Positions 29,156-37,182 of a DNA stretch of 64,000 nt are shown here, in pieces. Origin of the DNA: Gemmatimonadota bacterium. GTDB taxonomy: Bacteria > Gemmatimonadota > Gemmatimonadetes > Longimicrobiales > Gaopeijiaceae. Under the pieces are notes generated by a model. It worked only from the letters and a program-made list of their open reading frames with translations, searched no databases and was not told where the DNA came from. The stretch lies in the NCBI GenBank assembly GCA_030428885.1, contig JAUIEJ010000002.1:64501-128500 (forward strand), read 5' to 3'. The position numbers and the translations under genes are program-made. Position 1 is the first letter of the stretch, and each line of letters starts with the position of its first letter.

Positions 29156-30463
29156 GTGGACCACGAGCATGGCGGGATGCAACGACGACCCGTGGGAATC
29201 ATCGGGGCCGGTCCGGCCGGACTGGCCATGGCCGCGGCCCTGAGGGAGCGGGGTCTGGACTTCGAGATCCTGGACGCCGGAGCGGGTTTCGGCGGGATCT
29301 GGGACATCCATCGGGCCGAGACGCCCATGTACGACTCGGCCCACTTCATCTCGTCGCGCACGCTGTCGGCCTTTCCGGGCCACCCCATGCCCGTGGGGTT
29401 TCCCGACTATCCGCGCCACGACCAGATCCTGGACTACCTGCGGGCGTACGCCCGGGAGCACGATCTCGCCCCCCACACCCGCTTCGGGCTGCGGGTGACG
29501 TCGGCGCGGCGAGCCGGCGACGGCGACTGGACGGTGGGCACCGACGCCGGCACCGAGCACCGATATCGGGCCCTGTGCGCCGCCGTGGGCACCAACTGGC
29601 ACCCGGTGACGCCCGACGTGCCCGGCGCCTTCGACGGCACGGCGTTCCACTCCTTCGACTACCGCTCGCCCCAGGTGTTTCGGGATCGCCGGGTGCTGGT
29701 GGTGGGGGGCGGCAACTCGGGCTGCGACATCGCCTGCGACGCCGCCGGCTCGGCTCGTCGGGCGTTCATCAGCCTCCGCCGCGGATACCATTTCGTGCCG
29801 AAGTACATCTTCGGTCGGCCGGCCGACGTCTTCGCCCACGAAGGCCCCCCCCTCCCGGGGTGGCTGGAGCGACGGGTCTTCGGCTTCCTGCTCCGGCGGC
29901 TGCTGGTGGGCGATCTCACCCGGTTCGGGCTCCCGGCGCCCGACCACGCCCTCCTGGAGTCCCATCCGATCCTCAACACCCGACTGCTCCACCACCTGGG
30001 GCACGGCGATCTGGAAGTCCGTCCCGACGTGGTGGCCCTCCACGGATCGGAGGTGGAGTTCGCCGACGGCCGGCGAGAGGAGATCGACGTGGTGGTGTGG
30101 GCCACCGGGTATCGGAAGACGCTTCCCTTCCTGGCGCCGGAGGTCCTGGACCTGGGCGCGGGGGCGGGCGATCTGTACCTGCAGACGGCGCACCGGCGGG
30201 TGCCCGATCTCTTCGTGCTGGGGCTGTTCGAGACCGACGGCGCCGCCTATCCCCTGTTCGGACTGCAGGGTCGCCTGGTGGCGGCGGCCCTGGATCCCCA
30301 GCTTCCGCCCGCGCGTCGAGAGGCGTGGGATCGGCGCCGGGCCGAGTATCGCCCCGACCTCCGGGGGGGCCGTCGCTACCTCGCCTCCCCCCGCCACACC
30401 TTCTACGTGCACTCCGACAGCTACCGGCGGGCGCTGGACACCGAGATCGCCCGCCTGGCGTGA
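29156..30463 (+). CDS. Flavin-containing monooxygenase-like NAD(P)/FAD protein
   Basis: 435-aa flavoprotein of the FMO/Baeyer-Villiger type. VGIIGAGPAGLAMAAALRERG at 13-33 binds FAD, and LVVGGGNSGCDIACDAA near 181-197 binds NADPH. Between them FDGTAFHSFDYRSP (about 161-174) matches the FxGxxxHxxx(Y/F) fingerprint of N-oxygenating FMOs. VVWATGYRKTLPFL is the late ATG-type motif. It should insert one oxygen into a soft nucleophile; the substrate is unknown. The start may be GTG 29156 or ATG 29177, and neither has a clear ribosome site. The leading residues DHEHGGM after the GTG are His-rich. It is convergent with the RimK-like gene, four bases apart. Confidence 0.85.
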   Translation: MDHEHGGMQRRPVGIIGAGPAGLAMAAALRERGLDFEILDAGAGFGGIWDIHRAETPMYDSAHFISSRTLSAFPGHPMPVGFPDYPRHDQILDYLRAYAREHDLAPHTRFGLRVTSARRAGDGDWTVGTDAGTEHRYRALCAAVGTNWHPVTPDVPGAFDGTAFHSFDYRSPQVFRDRRVLVVGGGNSGCDIACDAAGSARRAFISLRRGYHFVPKYIFGRPADVFAHEGPPLPGWLERRVFGFLLRRLLVGDLTRFGLPAPDHALLESHPILNTRLLHHLGHGDLEVRPDVVALHGSEVEFADGRREEIDVVVWATGYRKTLPFLAPEVLDLGAGAGDLYLQTAHRRVPDLFVLGLFETDGAAYPLFGLQGRLVAAALDPQLPPARREAWDRRRAEYRPDLRGGRRYLASPRHTFYVHSDSYRRALDTEIARLA

Positions 30464-30467
30464 CGTC

Positions 30468-31946
30468 TCACCCCCGGGTCGGGCGGGTGCGGGCCTCCAG
30501 CCGACGCACGAATTCCCGCACGATCCGGGAGTAGAGCTCGGGGCCCAGGACCGCGTCCTCCACCCCGGCGTCGATGTTGGGATTGTCGTTGATCTCGATG
30601 ACCTTCACGCCCTCCGCCGTGTCCTTGAGGTCCACGCCGTACAACCCGTCGCCCACCAGGCCCGCGGCCCGGCAGGCCGTCTCGAGGACGGCCCGGGGCA
30701 CCTCGTCCACCGGGACGGTCTCCACCGCCCCCTCCCGGTCGCCGGCGGGAGCCCCGTGGTGCAGGATCTGCCAGTGTCCCCGGGACATGAAGTAGCGGCA
30801 AGCGAAGAGCGGTTCCCCGGCCAGGATGCCGATGCGCCAGTCGTAGGGCGTGTAGGTCCACGCCTGGGCCAGGAGCAGCTCGGAGTGCTCGAAGAGGGGC
30901 AGCGCCCGAGCCTCGAGCTCCTGCCGGTCGGCCACCTTGAACACCCCCCGGCTGAAGGCCCCGTCGGGCACCTTCAGGATCATGGGGTAGCCCAGGGCGT
31001 CCTCGGCCCGCTGGAGTTCGTCCCGGGCGACCACCACGCTCCGGGGCGTGGGCACCCGCTCCCGGGCCAGGAGCTCGGCCAGGTAGATCTTGTTGGTGCA
31101 GCGCAGGATCGAATCCGGGTCGTCCATGACCACCAGTCCCTCGGCCGCCGCCCGCCGGGCGAAGCGGTAGGTGTGGTGGTTGACGTTGGTGGTCTCCCGG
31201 ATGAAGAGGGCGTCGAACTCGGCGAGGCGCCCGAAGTCCTTCCGGGTGATGAGACGCGCCGCCAGCCCTTCCCTCCGGGCGGCCCGGAGAAACGCCGCCA
31301 GCGCCCGCCGGTCCGACGGGGCGAGGGCTTCGTCGGGATCGTGGAGCACCGCCAGCTCCCACCGCCCCGCGACCCGGGTGCGGGGGCGACGCCACGGCCG
31401 CCGCAGGTGGCGGTGGAGCGCGGCCAGCACCCGGTCCTCCAGTTCGGGGGGGACCCGGGACCACCCCGCCGTCCGGATGGCGGTGATGCGCCACTCCTCC
31501 TTCCGGCGCAATTCCACCCGGAGGAGGGGGGCCGGAAAGGCGTCGAAGACGGCCCGCCCGAGTCCCTTCAGTTCAGGCGTCTCGGACTCGCCGAAGACCA
31601 GGAACACGTCCTGGGTGTCCGCGCCCTCCCCGACCCGGGCCGTCAGCGCCTTCTGGGTGCGGGCGTCCAGCGCCTCCACGTCGGCCAGGTACAGGGTCTT
31701 CCGGCTCAGGTCCTGGATCGTCCGGACCGAGGGCAGCACCCGGTGCCCCCGGGCTTCGGCCAGGAGCGAGGCGTAGTACCCCGCCGAGTGGTACTGCATG
31801 TCCCGACACAGATTCACCACCCGCACGCCCCGGCGCTCCGACCAGGCCGGATCGGTCAGATAGCTCCGGACGGGCACGGCGTGGAGGGGCGCGAACCGCT
31901 GGGCCACGGGCCCGGGCGTGTCCAGGAGGACGATGTGTTCGGACAT
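30468..31946 (-). CDS. RimK family ATP-grasp ligase with RLAN-type N-terminal domain
   Basis: 492-aa carboxylate-amine/thiol ligase. Residues 1 to about 160 (VRVVNLCRDMQYHSAGYYASLLAEARGHRVLPSV) match the RimK-like ATP-grasp N-terminal domain. The ATP-grasp domain at about 280-485 has NVNHHTYRFARRAA, CTNKIYLAELL, YPMILKVPDGAFSRGVFKV with the ATP Lys and the small-residue loop, and LYGVDLKDTAEGVKVIEINDNPNID with the metal-binding ExN. It should join a carboxylate to an amine using ATP, as in adding Glu to proteins or making small peptides. It starts two bases after the GNAT-C39 gene stop. This domain pairing is known from predicted peptide-synthesis operons, but the product is not known here. 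Confidence 0.82.
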   Translation of the reverse strand: MSEHIVLLDTPGPVAQRFAPLHAVPVRSYLTDPAWSERRGVRVVNLCRDMQYHSAGYYASLLAEARGHRVLPSVRTIQDLSRKTLYLADVEALDARTQKALTARVGEGADTQDVFLVFGESETPELKGLGRAVFDAFPAPLLRVELRRKEEWRITAIRTAGWSRVPPELEDRVLAALHRHLRRPWRRPRTRVAGRWELAVLHDPDEALAPSDRRALAAFLRAARREGLAARLITRKDFGRLAEFDALFIRETTNVNHHTYRFARRAAAEGLVVMDDPDSILRCTNKIYLAELLARERVPTPRSVVVARDELQRAEDALGYPMILKVPDGAFSRGVFKVADRQELEARALPLFEHSELLLAQAWTYTPYDWRIGILAGEPLFACRYFMSRGHWQILHHGAPAGDREGAVETVPVDEVPRAVLETACRAAGLVGDGLYGVDLKDTAEGVKVIEINDNPNIDAGVEDAVLGPELYSRIVREFVRRLEARTRPTRG

Positions 31947-31948
31947 GG

Positions 31949-33085
31949 TCACGCCTCGCCGGGGCGGTGGGGGCCGATGAACAGCACGGCGCCCAGCCCC
32001 CGGCGCCCGTATCGGGCCATGCGGTCGAACTGGACCCGACCGATGGGCATGTTGATGGAGTCGGCCGCCGTCTCCCCTTCGGCTTCGTCGATGAAGGGAT
32101 CGCGGACGTACACGAAGTGTTCGTCGAAGCCCGTGATCACCACCCAGTGGGGCGCCCGGGTTCCGTAGATGGCCCACGAACTGATGAGAACCACGGGCAC
32201 GGCCCCCGCGCGGAACCGGTCTTCCAGCGCCTCCGGGGACACCCGCCCGAAGTGCACCGGCAGGCCCACCCGGGCCGCCTCCCGCTCCATGTCGGCCTGG
32301 ACCAGGGCCATGACCTCCTTCTTCTCGGGACTCCGGACCGACTCCAGCATCAGGCTGCCCTCGGAACTCAGGTGGAGTTCCACGTCGAAGCCCCGGTTCC
32401 ACGCCGCCAGGGCCAGTCCGTAGGGGCCGCATCCGCCGTGGCCCGAGGTCATGAAGACGGTGGTGGCCTCGCGCCAGAGGCGGAGTTCCAGGGCCCGGTC
32501 GGGCACCAGGTCGGGATCCAGGGCCGTGAACGCCATGATGAGCGCCGCCGGTCCGCAGGTGAAGTCCAGGGTCTGGCGATAATAGGGTACCCGCACCAGG
32601 GTGGGCCGGAGCCCCGCGTCCACGGCCTTCTCGTACCGCCACGCGCCCATGTGGTCGGCGTAGTAGTCGGCGTACTCGCCGAACCGTCGATAGCCCAGGG
32701 ACTCGAAGAGGGCCACGGACGCCCCGTTGTCCCGCCGGATCTCCAGCCGCACCCACGCCCGTTCATGGGACCACGCCTCGGCCTCCGCCGCCTCCACGAG
32801 GCGGCGTCCCACGCCCCGGCCCCGCATGCGGGGATCCACGGCAATGGAATAGAGCCGAGCCGTGGCCGTTCCCCGGGAGAAGAGCAGGATGACGCTTCCC
32901 ACCACGCCGTGGTCCGGATCGTCGGCCACCAGAACGGCGGCGTGAGCCCGGAGCAGGAGGTGCCGGAGGGCGCGCCGGGTGATCCGGTCGTCGTCGAAGG
33001 CCGCGACCTCCAGTGCCGCCAGGGCCTCGAGATCGTCGGGTGTCGCAGGGCGGATCGCCGGGGCTCCGGACGGAGCGGAAGACAT
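31949..33085 (-). CDS. GNAT acetyltransferase fused to C39-like cysteine peptidase
   Basis: 378-aa fusion. Residues about 10-150 are a GNAT N-acetyltransferase with the acetyl-CoA loop VDPRMRGRGVGRRLVEAAE and the ALFESLGYRRFGEY C-terminal motif. Residues about 163-378 are a papain-like C39 peptidase: Cys177 in QTLDFTCGPAAL, His314 in RAPHWVVITGF and Asp330 in VYVRDPF form a plausible triad. C39 domains usually cut leader peptides at a Gly-Gly site, yet no ABC exporter is fused or adjacent. Co-occurrence with the RimK-like ligase suggests that one complex ligates, acetylates and trims a peptide or protein tail. The fusion itself is seen directly; the joint role is inferred. Confidence 0.82.
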   Translation of the reverse strand: MSSAPSGAPAIRPATPDDLEALAALEVAAFDDDRITRRALRHLLLRAHAAVLVADDPDHGVVGSVILLFSRGTATARLYSIAVDPRMRGRGVGRRLVEAAEAEAWSHERAWVRLEIRRDNGASVALFESLGYRRFGEYADYYADHMGAWRYEKAVDAGLRPTLVRVPYYRQTLDFTCGPAALIMAFTALDPDLVPDRALELRLWREATTVFMTSGHGGCGPYGLALAAWNRGFDVELHLSSEGSLMLESVRSPEKKEVMALVQADMEREAARVGLPVHFGRVSPEALEDRFRAGAVPVVLISSWAIYGTRAPHWVVITGFDEHFVYVRDPFIDEAEGETAADSINMPIGRVQFDRMARYGRRGLGAVLFIGPHRPGEA

Positions 33086-33172: not shown

Positions 33173-33778
33173 CTACGACTCCGTCTCGGGGCGGGAGAGG
33201 TCGTCGGGGTGGTCCACGTCCCGGAGCACCCCCGGATCGTCCACGTCGACCCAGGCCACGGCGTGGGGCCGGCCTTCCAGGAGGCGACCGGCCCCGGCGT
33301 CCCCGGTGAGACGCCGGATCGCGGGAAAGTGCTCCGCGCCCCACAGCACCGGGTTGCCCCGGCGGCCGTGGTGCCGGGGCACGCACACCGAATGCCCCCG
33401 ATCGGGGCGGAACGCCGCCACGAGACGCCGGACCGTGGCCGGCGCCACCCAGGGCATGTCCCCCAGGAGCACCACCACGCCCCGGGCCCTCTCCGGGAGC
33501 GCCTCGACCCCCCGAACCAGCGAGGACGCCAGCCCCCGGGCCGGATCGGGGTTCCGGGCCACCACGACCCCCCGATGCGCCACCGCCGCCTCCACGGCCG
33601 CGGATTCGTGTCCGGTGACCACCACCACGGGCTCCAGGCCGGCCGCGGCGGCCGTGGCGGCCACACGGGCCACCATGGCCTCGCCCTCCACGGGAAACAG
33701 AAGCTTGGTGCCCTCCCCGGCCCGGGTGGAGAGGCCGGCGGCCAGGATCACGCCGGCGAGGCCGGGGTCACCCGCCAC
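33173..33778 (-). CDS. MobA-like nucleotidyltransferase
   Basis: 201-aa NTP transferase of the MobA/MocA type. AGVILAAGLSTRAGEGTKLLFPVEGEAMV holds the nucleotide loop and Lys. VVLLGDMPWVAPATV gives the metal-binding Asp, followed by RRGNPVLWGAEHFPAIRRLTGDAGAGRLL with the GNP motif of the molybdenum-cofactor cytidylyltransferases. The GTG start at 33778 lies 11 bases inside the xdhC-like gene. With that partner, a role in making or inserting CMP-type molybdopterin cofactor for a Mo-hydroxylase is likely. No such hydroxylase is in the window. The longer upstream ORF start lacks homology and was not used. Confidence 0.82.
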   Translation of the reverse strand: MAGDPGLAGVILAAGLSTRAGEGTKLLFPVEGEAMVARVAATAAAAGLEPVVVVTGHESAAVEAAVAHRGVVVARNPDPARGLASSLVRGVEALPERARGVVVLLGDMPWVAPATVRRLVAAFRPDRGHSVCVPRHHGRRGNPVLWGAEHFPAIRRLTGDAGAGRLLEGRPHAVAWVDVDDPGVLRDVDHPDDLSRPETES

Positions 33779-34784
33779 GGACCGCGCCGCCCCCCCGGAG
33801 CACCCCCACGATCTCGGCCAGGATCGACACGGCGATCTCCTCCGGCGCCCGCCCTCCCAGGTCGAGGCCCACCGGGGCGTGGATGCGGTCGAGTTCCGCC
33901 GCCGTGAGTCCAGCCTCACCCAGGCGGTCCCGGCGCCGGGCGTGGGTACGCCGGCTGCCCAGGGCCCCCACGTAGAAGGCCCGGCTCCGGACGGCGTACG
34001 CCAACGCCGGGTCGTCGAGCTTCGGATCGTGGGTGAGGGCCACCACCGCCGTGCGGCCGTCCAGGGCGAGGGCTTCGAGCCCTTCGGCGGGCCACGACGA
34101 CACCACGTCCACGTCGGGAAACCGTTCGGGGGAGGCGAAATCGGATCGGGGATCCACGACGCTCACGGCAAACCCGGCGACCCGAGCCAGGGCGGCCAGG
34201 GGCTGGGCGATGTGCACCGCGCCCACCAGCACGATCCGGACGGGGGGCAGATACGCCCGGAGGAAGACCGGGCCGTGGGGGCCCTCCACCACCCGCCCCC
34301 CACCGGCCCATGCCTCCCGGACGGCTTCCTCGGGGAGATCGGCCTGGAGGGCCGCGTCGGCGACCCCGCCGCCCTGGAGGTCCAGGGCCAGAATCCGGCC
34401 GTCGTCTCCCGGCCCCACCCGGCTCACGGCCCGGAGCAGGCCGGGCGGCCAGCCGCCGGACTCCTCCCCCACGGGATGGACCACCACCCGGATGGACCCG
34501 CCGCACGCCAGCCCCACGGCCCATGCGTCGGCGTCGGCCACGCCGTAGCGCAGATCCCGGGGCCGTGCGTCGCTCAACACCCCCCGGGCCTCGTCCACCA
34601 CCGCCACCTCGACGCAGCCCCCCGAGACCGAGCCCACGAAGCGGCCCTGGTCGTCCACCACCATGTGGCTCCCGGGGCGCCGCGGCGCCGAGCCCCAGGT
34701 CTCCACCACCGTGGCCAGGGCCACGCCCCGGCCCTCGTCGTACCAGGCGAGGGCCCGGCCCAGGACGTGGGGATCGGTATGCAT
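33768..34784 (-). CDS. XdhC/CoxI family molybdenum-hydroxylase maturation protein
   Basis: 338-aa protein of the XdhC/CoxI family, which delivers sulfurated molybdenum cofactor to xanthine- or CO-dehydrogenase-type enzymes. The N-terminal XdhC domain has GVALATVVETWGSAPRRPGSHMVVDDQGRFVGSVSGGCVE. The C-terminal Rossmann domain starts at PVRIVLVGAVHIAQPLAALA and includes DDPALAYAVRSRAFYVGALGSRRTHARR and the ending IHAPVGLDLGGRAPEEIAVSILAEI. It overlaps the MobA-like gene by 11 bases. The pair resembles a cofactor-handling module detached from its enzyme genes. Confidence 0.87.
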   Translation of the reverse strand: MHTDPHVLGRALAWYDEGRGVALATVVETWGSAPRRPGSHMVVDDQGRFVGSVSGGCVEVAVVDEARGVLSDARPRDLRYGVADADAWAVGLACGGSIRVVVHPVGEESGGWPPGLLRAVSRVGPGDDGRILALDLQGGGVADAALQADLPEEAVREAWAGGGRVVEGPHGPVFLRAYLPPVRIVLVGAVHIAQPLAALARVAGFAVSVVDPRSDFASPERFPDVDVVSSWPAEGLEALALDGRTAVVALTHDPKLDDPALAYAVRSRAFYVGALGSRRTHARRRDRLGEAGLTAAELDRIHAPVGLDLGGRAPEEIAVSILAEIVGVLRGGGAVRGG

Positions 34785-34815
34785 GGCCCGATCCTGCGCC
34801 CCGAGCCCGAACCCG

Positions 34816-37182
34816 TCAACCGCCGGGACAGACGCCGAAGGTCTCCCAGTGGTCCTGGAGGAAGGGACCGAGGCGCTCCCGGGCGAAATCGAGCTGGGCC
34901 GCCGGCAGCGCGCCCCGGGCCGGCCCGTCGGCGAACCGGACGTAGACCGCGCCCACCACACCGCAGGTCAGGGGCTCCCCGGGGCCGCCGGCGGTCTCCC
35001 CTGCGGCGAAGAGCAGGGACTTGATGAATAGATCGTCGCCTCTCCCCGCCTCGCCCGCCTCGGCCAGCGTGCCCGTCTTGGCCAGCACGCCCCGGGGCAG
35101 GCCGTCCCGGCTCCAGGCCTCCTCCAGCCCCCGGGCGGTTCCGGTGCGACCCACGTCCCGCAGCCCCGCCATGAGCTCGGGATACCAGGCGCCCTCCGAG
35201 AGGCCCGCGGACTCGGGCACCACCGCCGCGGCCGGGGTGCGGGAGAAGCGGAGGCCCATGCGCCGGTCGCTCACCACCCGACCGAAGGCCTCGGTCAGGC
35301 CCAGGAGGGTCCACCGGTTCTCCCACGCGCCCACCGACCAGCGGAAGAGCAGTCCCAATTCCGTGTCCTCCCGGGCCGGAGAGGCCAGGAGGAGCGGGCG
35401 GGACACCGAGGGACGGGCCTCCAACGGCGCCGTCAGGGGCGTCCCGTCGGTGAGGCGGAGGTCCCGCCACACCCCGTCGGTCCGGCGGGTGCGGTCCACC
35501 ACCACCGGGTCGGGCGAGACGTCGAAGAGCGCGCCGAGACCGGCGGCCAGGGGGCTCGTGAGCAGGGTGGTGCGGCCCAGGCGTCCGGCCGACTCGCCGG
35601 GCCACTCCGAGGGGCTCCGCAGCCCGGACCAGGTCGACCCGCCCAGGCGGAACCGACCGACCCGGAGGTCCCCGTCGCCGGCCCGCCGCCAGACCCCCTC
35701 GGGAAGCAGGCCCGCCGTCACCAGGGAGGCGGCGTACTCGTTGCTGGAGCACCGCACGAAGTCCCGGAGTCCGATCCACCCGTCGTCGGGCATGCCACAG
35801 TTCAGGGGGGACTCGAACGCCCGTCGGGCCGGCACGGGCGGAAGCCCCAGGACGCTGCGCACGTCGCCGGACCGTGCCGGAATCCGCAACGAGCCGAGAT
35901 CGGGGCGGCGGGACAGGAGGGCGGCGGCCACCAGAGGTTTCACCGCCGATCCCGGAGCCACCGGCTCGAAGAGGGCGCTCCGCCCCGGCGAGACGCGACG
36001 CCCCACCTCCGCCACCGCCACGATCTCCCCGTCGGGAATCCGGGCCAGGACCACCATGGCCACGTCCACCGGCAGGTCCATGCGGCGCTCCACGAAGTCG
36101 GCCAGCGACGCCGTGAGTTCGCGGCTGGCCCCGGCATGCACGCTCACCTCCACGGCCGCGTCCGACGCCGCCGCCGCCCCCGTGCCCGGATCGTCCAGAG
36201 GCGCGAAGAGGTCCAGAGGGGGCGCGAAGTCCGACATCCGGCGCTCCCGCCCGTTCACCCACTGCTCGCTGGAGAGGATTCCGTCCCAGAACTCCCCCAG
36301 GAGCATGGGCTCGAGGGGGTCGAGCTGGAGCACGCTCCCCTCCCGGACCGGGACCGAGTCGCCCGACGACACCCGGTCGCCGTCGACCCAGAGGTCGGTC
36401 CACCCCGCCACCGCCGTCCGGGGCGTGGGATCGTCGCCGGCGAGGCGGAAGATGGCCTGGGGCACCCGCTGCTCCGAGAGGCAGAAGGCCTGCACCTCCA
36501 TGGGGCCGGGCTCGAACTCGCACCGCTGGCGGCGGCCGTCCACCGTGCGGAACAACCGGGTGGGCCGACGCAGCGACACGGTGACGCCGGGACCCAGGAG
36601 GCCCGCGCCTCGCCGGGCGTCCCGGGCCCGGACTTCCCCCCCCCACCGGCCCTCGAAGGGGGAGCGCACCCGCAGGCTCCACGCTTCGGCCGACCGGGAG
36701 AGCCGCCGGGCGCCCTCCCCGTCCCGGTCCACCCGGAACACCGACGGGTTGTAGGGGGCCAGGCGGTCGAACCACTCCGCCCGCTCCCGTCCCAGGGCCA
36801 GGCGCTCCCGCTGGAAGCGGTTGTAGCGCTCCACCTGGTCGTGGAGGAATCCCCCGGGCCGGAGGCTCGGATACCGGTCCGGGTCCGCCTCCACCACCAG
36901 GGAGTCCCACGTCACCTCCCGCCCGTCGGCGAGGCGCCCCTCCAGCGGCTCGAACCGCACCAGGCCGTCGGACCCGGCCCGGGTGAGGAGTTCGTCCAGG
37001 GAGGCCAGGAAGCCGTCGTAGTCCAGACCCTCCCGCACCTCGGCCTCGTCCCGGGCATCCACCACGGCCCATCCCACGGCCACCAGCGCCGCCGCCGTGG
37101 TGCCCAGGAGGAGGGCCACGGCCCACAGCAGTCCCCGACCTCCGCCCTCGGGCTCTCGTCGATCCGTCGTGGGGCCGCTCAT
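34816..37182 (-). CDS. Penicillin-binding-protein-like transpeptidase paired with SEDS-like protein
   Basis: 788-aa single-pass membrane protein; the helix is at about 18-42 (LLWAVALLLGTTAAALVAVGWAV). The C-terminal half has penicillin-binding transpeptidase motifs in order: S-A-V-K in APGSAVKPLV near 409-412, the SSN in RCSSNEYAAS near 478-480, and KTG in LAKTGTLAEAG near 700. The region before SxxK (about 45-400) is an unrecognised outer segment with Cys residues and no glycosyltransferase domain. The SxN-to-KTG gap is wide for the family. The ATG overlaps the stop of the upstream FtsW/RodA-like gene by four bases, as expected for a polymerase-transpeptidase couple. The cell-wall role is inferred from family and pairing. 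Confidence 0.75.
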   Translation of the reverse strand: MSGPTTDRREPEGGGRGLLWAVALLLGTTAAALVAVGWAVVDARDEAEVREGLDYDGFLASLDELLTRAGSDGLVRFEPLEGRLADGREVTWDSLVVEADPDRYPSLRPGGFLHDQVERYNRFQRERLALGRERAEWFDRLAPYNPSVFRVDRDGEGARRLSRSAEAWSLRVRSPFEGRWGGEVRARDARRGAGLLGPGVTVSLRRPTRLFRTVDGRRQRCEFEPGPMEVQAFCLSEQRVPQAIFRLAGDDPTPRTAVAGWTDLWVDGDRVSSGDSVPVREGSVLQLDPLEPMLLGEFWDGILSSEQWVNGRERRMSDFAPPLDLFAPLDDPGTGAAAASDAAVEVSVHAGASRELTASLADFVERRMDLPVDVAMVVLARIPDGEIVAVAEVGRRVSPGRSALFEPVAPGSAVKPLVAAALLSRRPDLGSLRIPARSGDVRSVLGLPPVPARRAFESPLNCGMPDDGWIGLRDFVRCSSNEYAASLVTAGLLPEGVWRRAGDGDLRVGRFRLGGSTWSGLRSPSEWPGESAGRLGRTTLLTSPLAAGLGALFDVSPDPVVVDRTRRTDGVWRDLRLTDGTPLTAPLEARPSVSRPLLLASPAREDTELGLLFRWSVGAWENRWTLLGLTEAFGRVVSDRRMGLRFSRTPAAAVVPESAGLSEGAWYPELMAGLRDVGRTGTARGLEEAWSRDGLPRGVLAKTGTLAEAGEAGRGDDLFIKSLLFAAGETAGGPGEPLTCGVVGAVYVRFADGPARGALPAAQLDFARERLGPFLQDHWETFGVCPGG

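Follow-up and report, generated by a model that had tools for sequence, protein, structure and literature searches.

The question raised by this locus is what is made, or modified, by two adjoining genes, one encoding a RimK-like ATP-grasp ligase and the other an acetyltransferase fused to a papain-like peptidase. The pair lies within a window (the whole stretch of DNA analysed) of 64,000 nucleotides from a Gemmatimonadota genome, and the original prediction was a peptide-tagging system in which ligation, acetylation and cleavage are combined. The features of the pair, all on the reverse strand, are as follows.

31949..33085 (-): GNAT acetyltransferase fused to a C39-like (DUF3335) peptidase, 378 aa (ORF and Pfam)
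32609..33064 (-): GNAT domain, residues 8-159, RimI/Ard1-like fold (Pfam and structure comparison)
31976..32590 (-): DUF3335 papain-like/C39-like peptidase domain, residues 166-370, with Gln171, Cys177, His313 and Asp329 (Pfam and alignment)
31947..31948 (-): intergenic junction of 2 bases, TGA-CC-ATG (sequence)
30468..31946 (-): RLAN-domain RimK-type ATP-grasp ligase, 492 aa, ATG at 31946 (ORF, Pfam, curated models and structure comparison)
31428..31868 (-): RLAN domain (PF14401), ligase residues 27-173 (Pfam)
30486..31361 (-): ATP-grasp part, ligase residues about 196-487, nearest solved structures LysX/ArgX/RimK (structure comparison)

Both open reading frames were confirmed as first placed, with the ligase starting two bases past the GNAT-C39 gene, a junction that is consistent with translational coupling of the two genes. 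In comparisons with Pfam, the ligase matched RLAN (PF14401, E 1e-45, 155 bits, cut-off 25) and the RimK ATP-grasp family (PF08443, E 3.5e-5, 23.9 bits, cut-off 21), and the GNAT-C39 protein matched GNAT (PF00583, E 2e-13) and DUF3335, ‘Peptidase_C39 like’ (PF11814, E 1e-81, 273.6 bits, cut-off 25). Neither the C39 exporter peptidase family (PF03412, at E 0.01) nor an ABC domain was detected in the GNAT-C39 protein. All the marks of an RLAN-RimK / GNAT-DUF3335 pair were found in the window, namely RLAN followed by ATP-grasp, an adjacent GNAT-DUF3335 fusion, and a Cys-His-Asp triad. Curated models did not assign the ligase to a familiar enzyme: it scored 72.2 bits against the RimK S6-glutamate ligase model (TIGR00768, cut-off 143.4) and 34.8 bits against a glutathione synthetase model (PRK12458, cut-off 408), the latter in keeping with the expectation that it is something other than a plain glutathione-type enzyme. 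The NAGGN synthetase Ngg (TIGR03103, cut-off 569) was likewise rejected, with 31 bits for the window GNAT and at most 30.8 bits for any protein of the whole genome.

The peptidase residues Gln171, Cys177, His313 and Asp329 were identical in all 34 aligned homologues. The catalytic residues had been predicted to be intact, and Cys177 was correctly named; the histidine and aspartate had been numbered one too high (314 and 330). In the ligase, Lys286, Lys325, Asp439, Glu451 and Asn453 of the ATP-grasp part were invariant in 52/52 homologues. Glu115 of the GNAT domain was invariant in its alignment (n=34), and position 127, which is Phe in the window, was Phe in 12 and Tyr in 21 of the 34 homologues; it presumably aligns with the catalytic Tyr115 of RimI, which qualifies the prediction of intact catalytic residues as far as the GNAT is concerned. 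A GHGGC motif (residues 215-219 of GNAT-C39, window 32429-32443, reverse strand) was nearly invariant in the C39 domain and includes a second invariant cysteine, Cys219, which adjoins a loop of low model confidence. AlphaFold2 models were built from alignments made in this analysis, with a mean pLDDT of 91 for GNAT-C39 and 86 for the ligase. The ATP-grasp part of the ligase best matched LysX, ArgX and RimK (Z 27-28) and the GNAT half of the fusion best matched the alpha-amine acetyltransferases RimI and Ard1 (Z about 22); these two parts filled the structural match lists, which left little coverage for RLAN or for the C39 half.

The immediate neighbours of the pair in the window are MobA-like, XdhC-family and FMO-like genes. 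The MobA-like NTP transferase and XdhC-family genes lie directly upstream (33173-34961, reverse strand); they were kept in one relative of the same genus (L027) and were absent in L028, L030 and L032, and were therefore rejected as system components. The FMO-like flavin monooxygenase gene (29156-30463, forward strand) is convergent with the ligase gene and ArsO-like, at 154.6 bits against a cut-off of 425. No AsnO amidotransferase was present among the neighbours, and neither an ABC exporter nor a conserved small ORF was found adjoining the pair, which agrees with the original description of a locus lacking exporter and precursor peptide. A further RimK-like ATP-grasp gene, at 26% identity, was seen in genome G000 by an AstE/AspA-like stretch (G000:C4:123555-124957; L002, L149).

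Linkage of the two genes was evaluated by scanning bacterial and archaeal genomes, which yielded more than 580 stretches coding for relatives of the ligase, and the best 80 were kept by likeness to the window's ligase. A GNAT gene adjoined the ligase gene in 76 of these best 80 of more than 580 loci (65 with C39 and 11 without), a share that is not valid for the whole ligase family because the 80 loci are those nearest to the window's ligase. Within this set, the GNAT gene was placed either upstream and codirectional or divergent from the ligase gene. In the other four of the 80, the pair was unlinked or single, and two of these four genomes carried GNAT-C39 at another location. In a phylum sample of 298 genomes, RLAN was found in 23 and DUF3335 in four, adjacent to RLAN in all four. 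Linkage in relatives was thus borne out, and the proposition that the genes are unlinked in all relatives fails on both the nearest loci and the DUF3335 genomes of the phylum. The pair is distributed among Pseudomonadota (commonly in Pseudomonas), Bdellovibrionota, Gemmatimonadota and others. Three individual cases are recorded here as observations: two genomes (G326 and G327, loci L094 and L093) encode both ligase and GNAT-C39, apparently unlinked; on a P. aeruginosa plasmid (L140, NZ_CP133752.1), an RLAN-RimK gene has no GNAT beside it; and in Methanosarcina acetivorans, a control genome, DUF3335 is present with no RLAN detected, so that the peptidase domain is used there as an orphan.

The peptidase proved to be the variable part of the pair. 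GNAT alone, without C39, stood beside the ligase in Lysobacterales and some Pseudomonas (11 of the best 80 of more than 580 loci), and DUF3335 was absent genome-wide in nine of those 11 genomes, so C39 is dispensable. A quick maximum-likelihood search over 92 ligases, with SH-aLRT support, gave a tree that includes some long branches; on it, C39 presence requires four changes among the GNAT-type rows. The C39 part has been lost at least three to four times while GNAT and ligase persist, and the acetyltransferase is the constant partner of the ligase, with the peptidase optional.

A sister architecture was found in which a GCS2 carboxylate-amine ligase stands in place of GNAT, both in the window's own family (e.g. 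L029, L031 and L125) and in its order (L033-L042). Like the window pair, these loci have a ligase of the RLAN-RimK family and a C39-like peptidase; unlike it, they have GCS2 for GNAT, the peptidase is a separate gene of another C39-like family that precedes the ligase, and a gene like N-formylglutamate amidohydrolase (FGase) is often added after it. GCS2 is encoded either as a separate gene or as a fusion to the ligase C-terminus. In L033-L042, which belong to two families of the window's order, RLAN-ATP-grasp-GCS2 fusions were observed with the C39-like peptidase before them, and the C39 gene is missing from a Legionella record in which ligase, GCS2 and FGase are all present. GNAT and GCS2 occurred together in 0 of 112 loci. 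The ligase tree parts GNAT-linked from GCS2-linked ligases, and the label changes twice on it, one of the changes tracing to just one Aeromonas row on a long branch; the window's family carries both types in separate ligase clades. GNAT and GCS2 are mutually exclusive partners, and the ligase clades follow partner type. The suggestion that ligation, acetylation and cleavage are needed jointly is not supported, given the repeated loss of C39 and the replacement of GNAT by GCS2.

Recurring extra neighbour genes in homologous loci were amidases or peptidases. A DUF2817 gene was found alongside GNAT-C39 at four loci, an ArgE/M20 gene was divergent from the pair at seven loci (mostly Chromatiales), and an M14 gene lay near the pair in L062 and L063; a CorA gene followed the pair in 23 Pseudomonas loci. 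In Bacteriovoracales, an aspartoacylase gene was located directly downstream of the pair (L109, 240.5 bits against a curated cut-off of 180). The enzyme exceeded the cut-off in only two of 28 tested genomes, both Bacteriovoracales, so it was discarded as a general partner and is treated as a clue for one lineage.

A precursor was sought among 2553 small ORFs (20-100 aa) lying no more than 1.5 kb away in 84 GNAT-type loci. No conserved small ORF family was found in these loci beyond gene-internal frames and genus-level noise, a search that divergent precursors could escape. The apparent families lay inside ArgE, CorA or other known genes, or were intergenic and confined to Pseudomonas and near kin.

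The pair is, on balance, best regarded as a cytoplasmic two-gene pathway that makes, and is able to degrade, a short N-acetyl-capped non-ribosomal peptide, a reading that is held to be somewhat more probable than its negation. This is the best explanation because an alpha-amine acetyltransferase is constant beside a carboxylate-amine ligase and is replaced only by an amine-capping ligase. Its observed basis consists of the domains, the invariant catalytic residues, linkage, GNAT/GCS2 exclusion, partner-specific clades and C39 dispensability; from these we infer all of the reactions, and the identities of the amino acids, in the proposed pathway. With acetyl-CoA as donor, the GNAT domain would acetylate an amino acid or dipeptide on its alpha-amine, after which the RLAN-ATP-grasp enzyme would use ATP to activate the carboxylate that is still free on the capped amino acid and join it to the amine of another amino acid. 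Optionally, the C39 domain may hydrolyse or transpeptidate the product, controlling its level or length, and recycling could fall, in certain lineages, to a separate metallo-deacylase or peptidase (aspartoacylase, DUF2817 or M14). In the sister system, the GCS2 ligase would provide a gamma-glutamyl cap in place of the acetyl group supplied by GNAT.

The main rival, prompted by the protein substrates of RimK and LysX, is C-terminal tagging, in which RLAN-RimK extends a protein C-terminus (cf. RimK-S6 and LysX-LysW), C39 removes the tag and GNAT, as part of that process, caps an amine. Against a free peptide stand the closest structural relatives (RimK, LysX, RimI, Ard1), enzymes of protein or peptide termini that keep a protein substrate plausible, together with the confinement of the aspartoacylase clue to one lineage and the four of the best 80 loci in which the pair is unlinked or single. 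For tagging, the ATP-grasp part is closest to enzymes of protein C-termini (LysX, ArgX, RimK), the GNAT is like RimI and Ard1, whose targets are protein N-termini, and RimB and RloA exemplify ligase/peptidase pairs able to regulate such tags (PMC12239564). Tagging is kept as a live alternative but rated rather unlikely: a conserved protein or small ORF was not found alongside the pair, the peptidase is often absent while GNAT is retained, and the swap of GNAT for GCS2 is hard to square with a fixed protein C-terminus. The ‘peptide tagging’ first proposed is partly supported; homologous loci yielded neither a conserved peptide nor a tail substrate, and partner swapping together with recurrent metallo-amidase neighbours is better fitted by a small free N-capped peptide than by a protein tag.

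Two further explanations carry much less weight. That one operon serves separate processes, general peptide acetylation and cleavage on one side and a separate ligase on the other, would suit the four loci (among the best 80 of more than 580) in which the ligase lacks GNAT and the two genomes that keep GNAT-C39 elsewhere, but it is very unlikely given that linkage is kept in several phyla, whether the genes are codirectional or divergent, and that ligase clades track partner type. RiPP or graspetide-like maturation of an undetected precursor, with the ligase crosslinking, C39 cutting the leader and GNAT capping, draws on the presence of C39 peptidases and ATP-grasp ligases in loci of that kind (PMC8939145). 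It is rated as still less likely: no conserved small ORF within 1.5 kb was found in the 84 GNAT-type loci, no ABC exporter was found, the C39 part is DUF3335 and not the transporter-linked PF03412 type, and C39 is dispensable.

The proposed short N-capped peptide would give the locus a wider meaning, in that the pair may be viewed as a biosynthetic module, conserved and mobile, in which either GNAT or GCS2 serves as the capping enzyme. The alternation predicts that one ligase underlies two kindred families of small peptides, one capped by an acetyl and one by a gamma-glutamyl group. The literature searched gave no product or phenotype for the pair, for PA1345 or for the GCS2/FGase combination, in line with the original remark that the substrate is undescribed.

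RLAN was reportedly described by Iyer et al. 2009 in the context of GNAT-DUF3335 / RimK-type ATP-grasp operons. DUF3335 is often fused to GNAT domains, an association for which Iyer et al. 2009 is cited (PMC10318531). Because the two domain families, and the fact that they associate, were already on record (PMC10318531), the window pair is counted as belonging to a known, biochemically uncharacterised kind, predicted in outline; it has the same domains as the RLAN-RimK / GNAT-DUF3335 pairs reportedly predicted by Iyer et al. 2009 and is a member with no difference found. GNAT/GCS2 exclusivity, partner-specific ligase clades and C39 dispensability are added here, with possible overlap with Iyer et al. 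2009.

Among characterised systems, GNAT and ATP-grasp activities are proven to make an acetylated dipeptide in Ngg, the NAGGN enzyme (PMC8070244). The NAGGN system (Ngg, AsnO and a peptidase) resembles the window in combining GNAT and ATP-grasp with a peptidase gene alongside, and its product is an N-acetylated dipeptide (PMC8070244); it differs in that Ngg is a single fused protein from a different family (TIGR03103) acting with AsnO, whereas the window has RLAN and C39. Capping of an ATP-grasp product by GNAT has also been proposed for other families (PMC4431377). The RimK-RimB and RloABC loci share an ATP-grasp ligase and a peptidase with the window (PMC12239564), but the peptidase is retropepsin-like, GNAT is absent and an RLAN domain is not reported there. 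A further parallel, with a eukaryotic route, is drawn with mammalian NAA/NAAG. That route includes NAT8L, RIMKLA and aspartoacylase. RIMKLB is a NAAG or beta-citrylglutamate synthase (PMC7907349). Mammals and the bacterial pair have in common a GNAT and a RimK-like ligase, to which the Bacteriovoracales loci add the neighbouring aspartoacylase; RLAN and C39 are absent from the mammalian route, and the bacterial aspartoacylase link is confined to one lineage. A bacterial counterpart of NAA/NAAG is accordingly put forward as an unlikely but specific form of the capped-peptide pathway, in which GNAT would acetylate an acidic amino acid, the ligase would add a second, aspartoacylase or DUF2817 would recycle the product and C39 would cleave it, with GNAT and GCS2 serving as interchangeable capping modules on one ligase platform.
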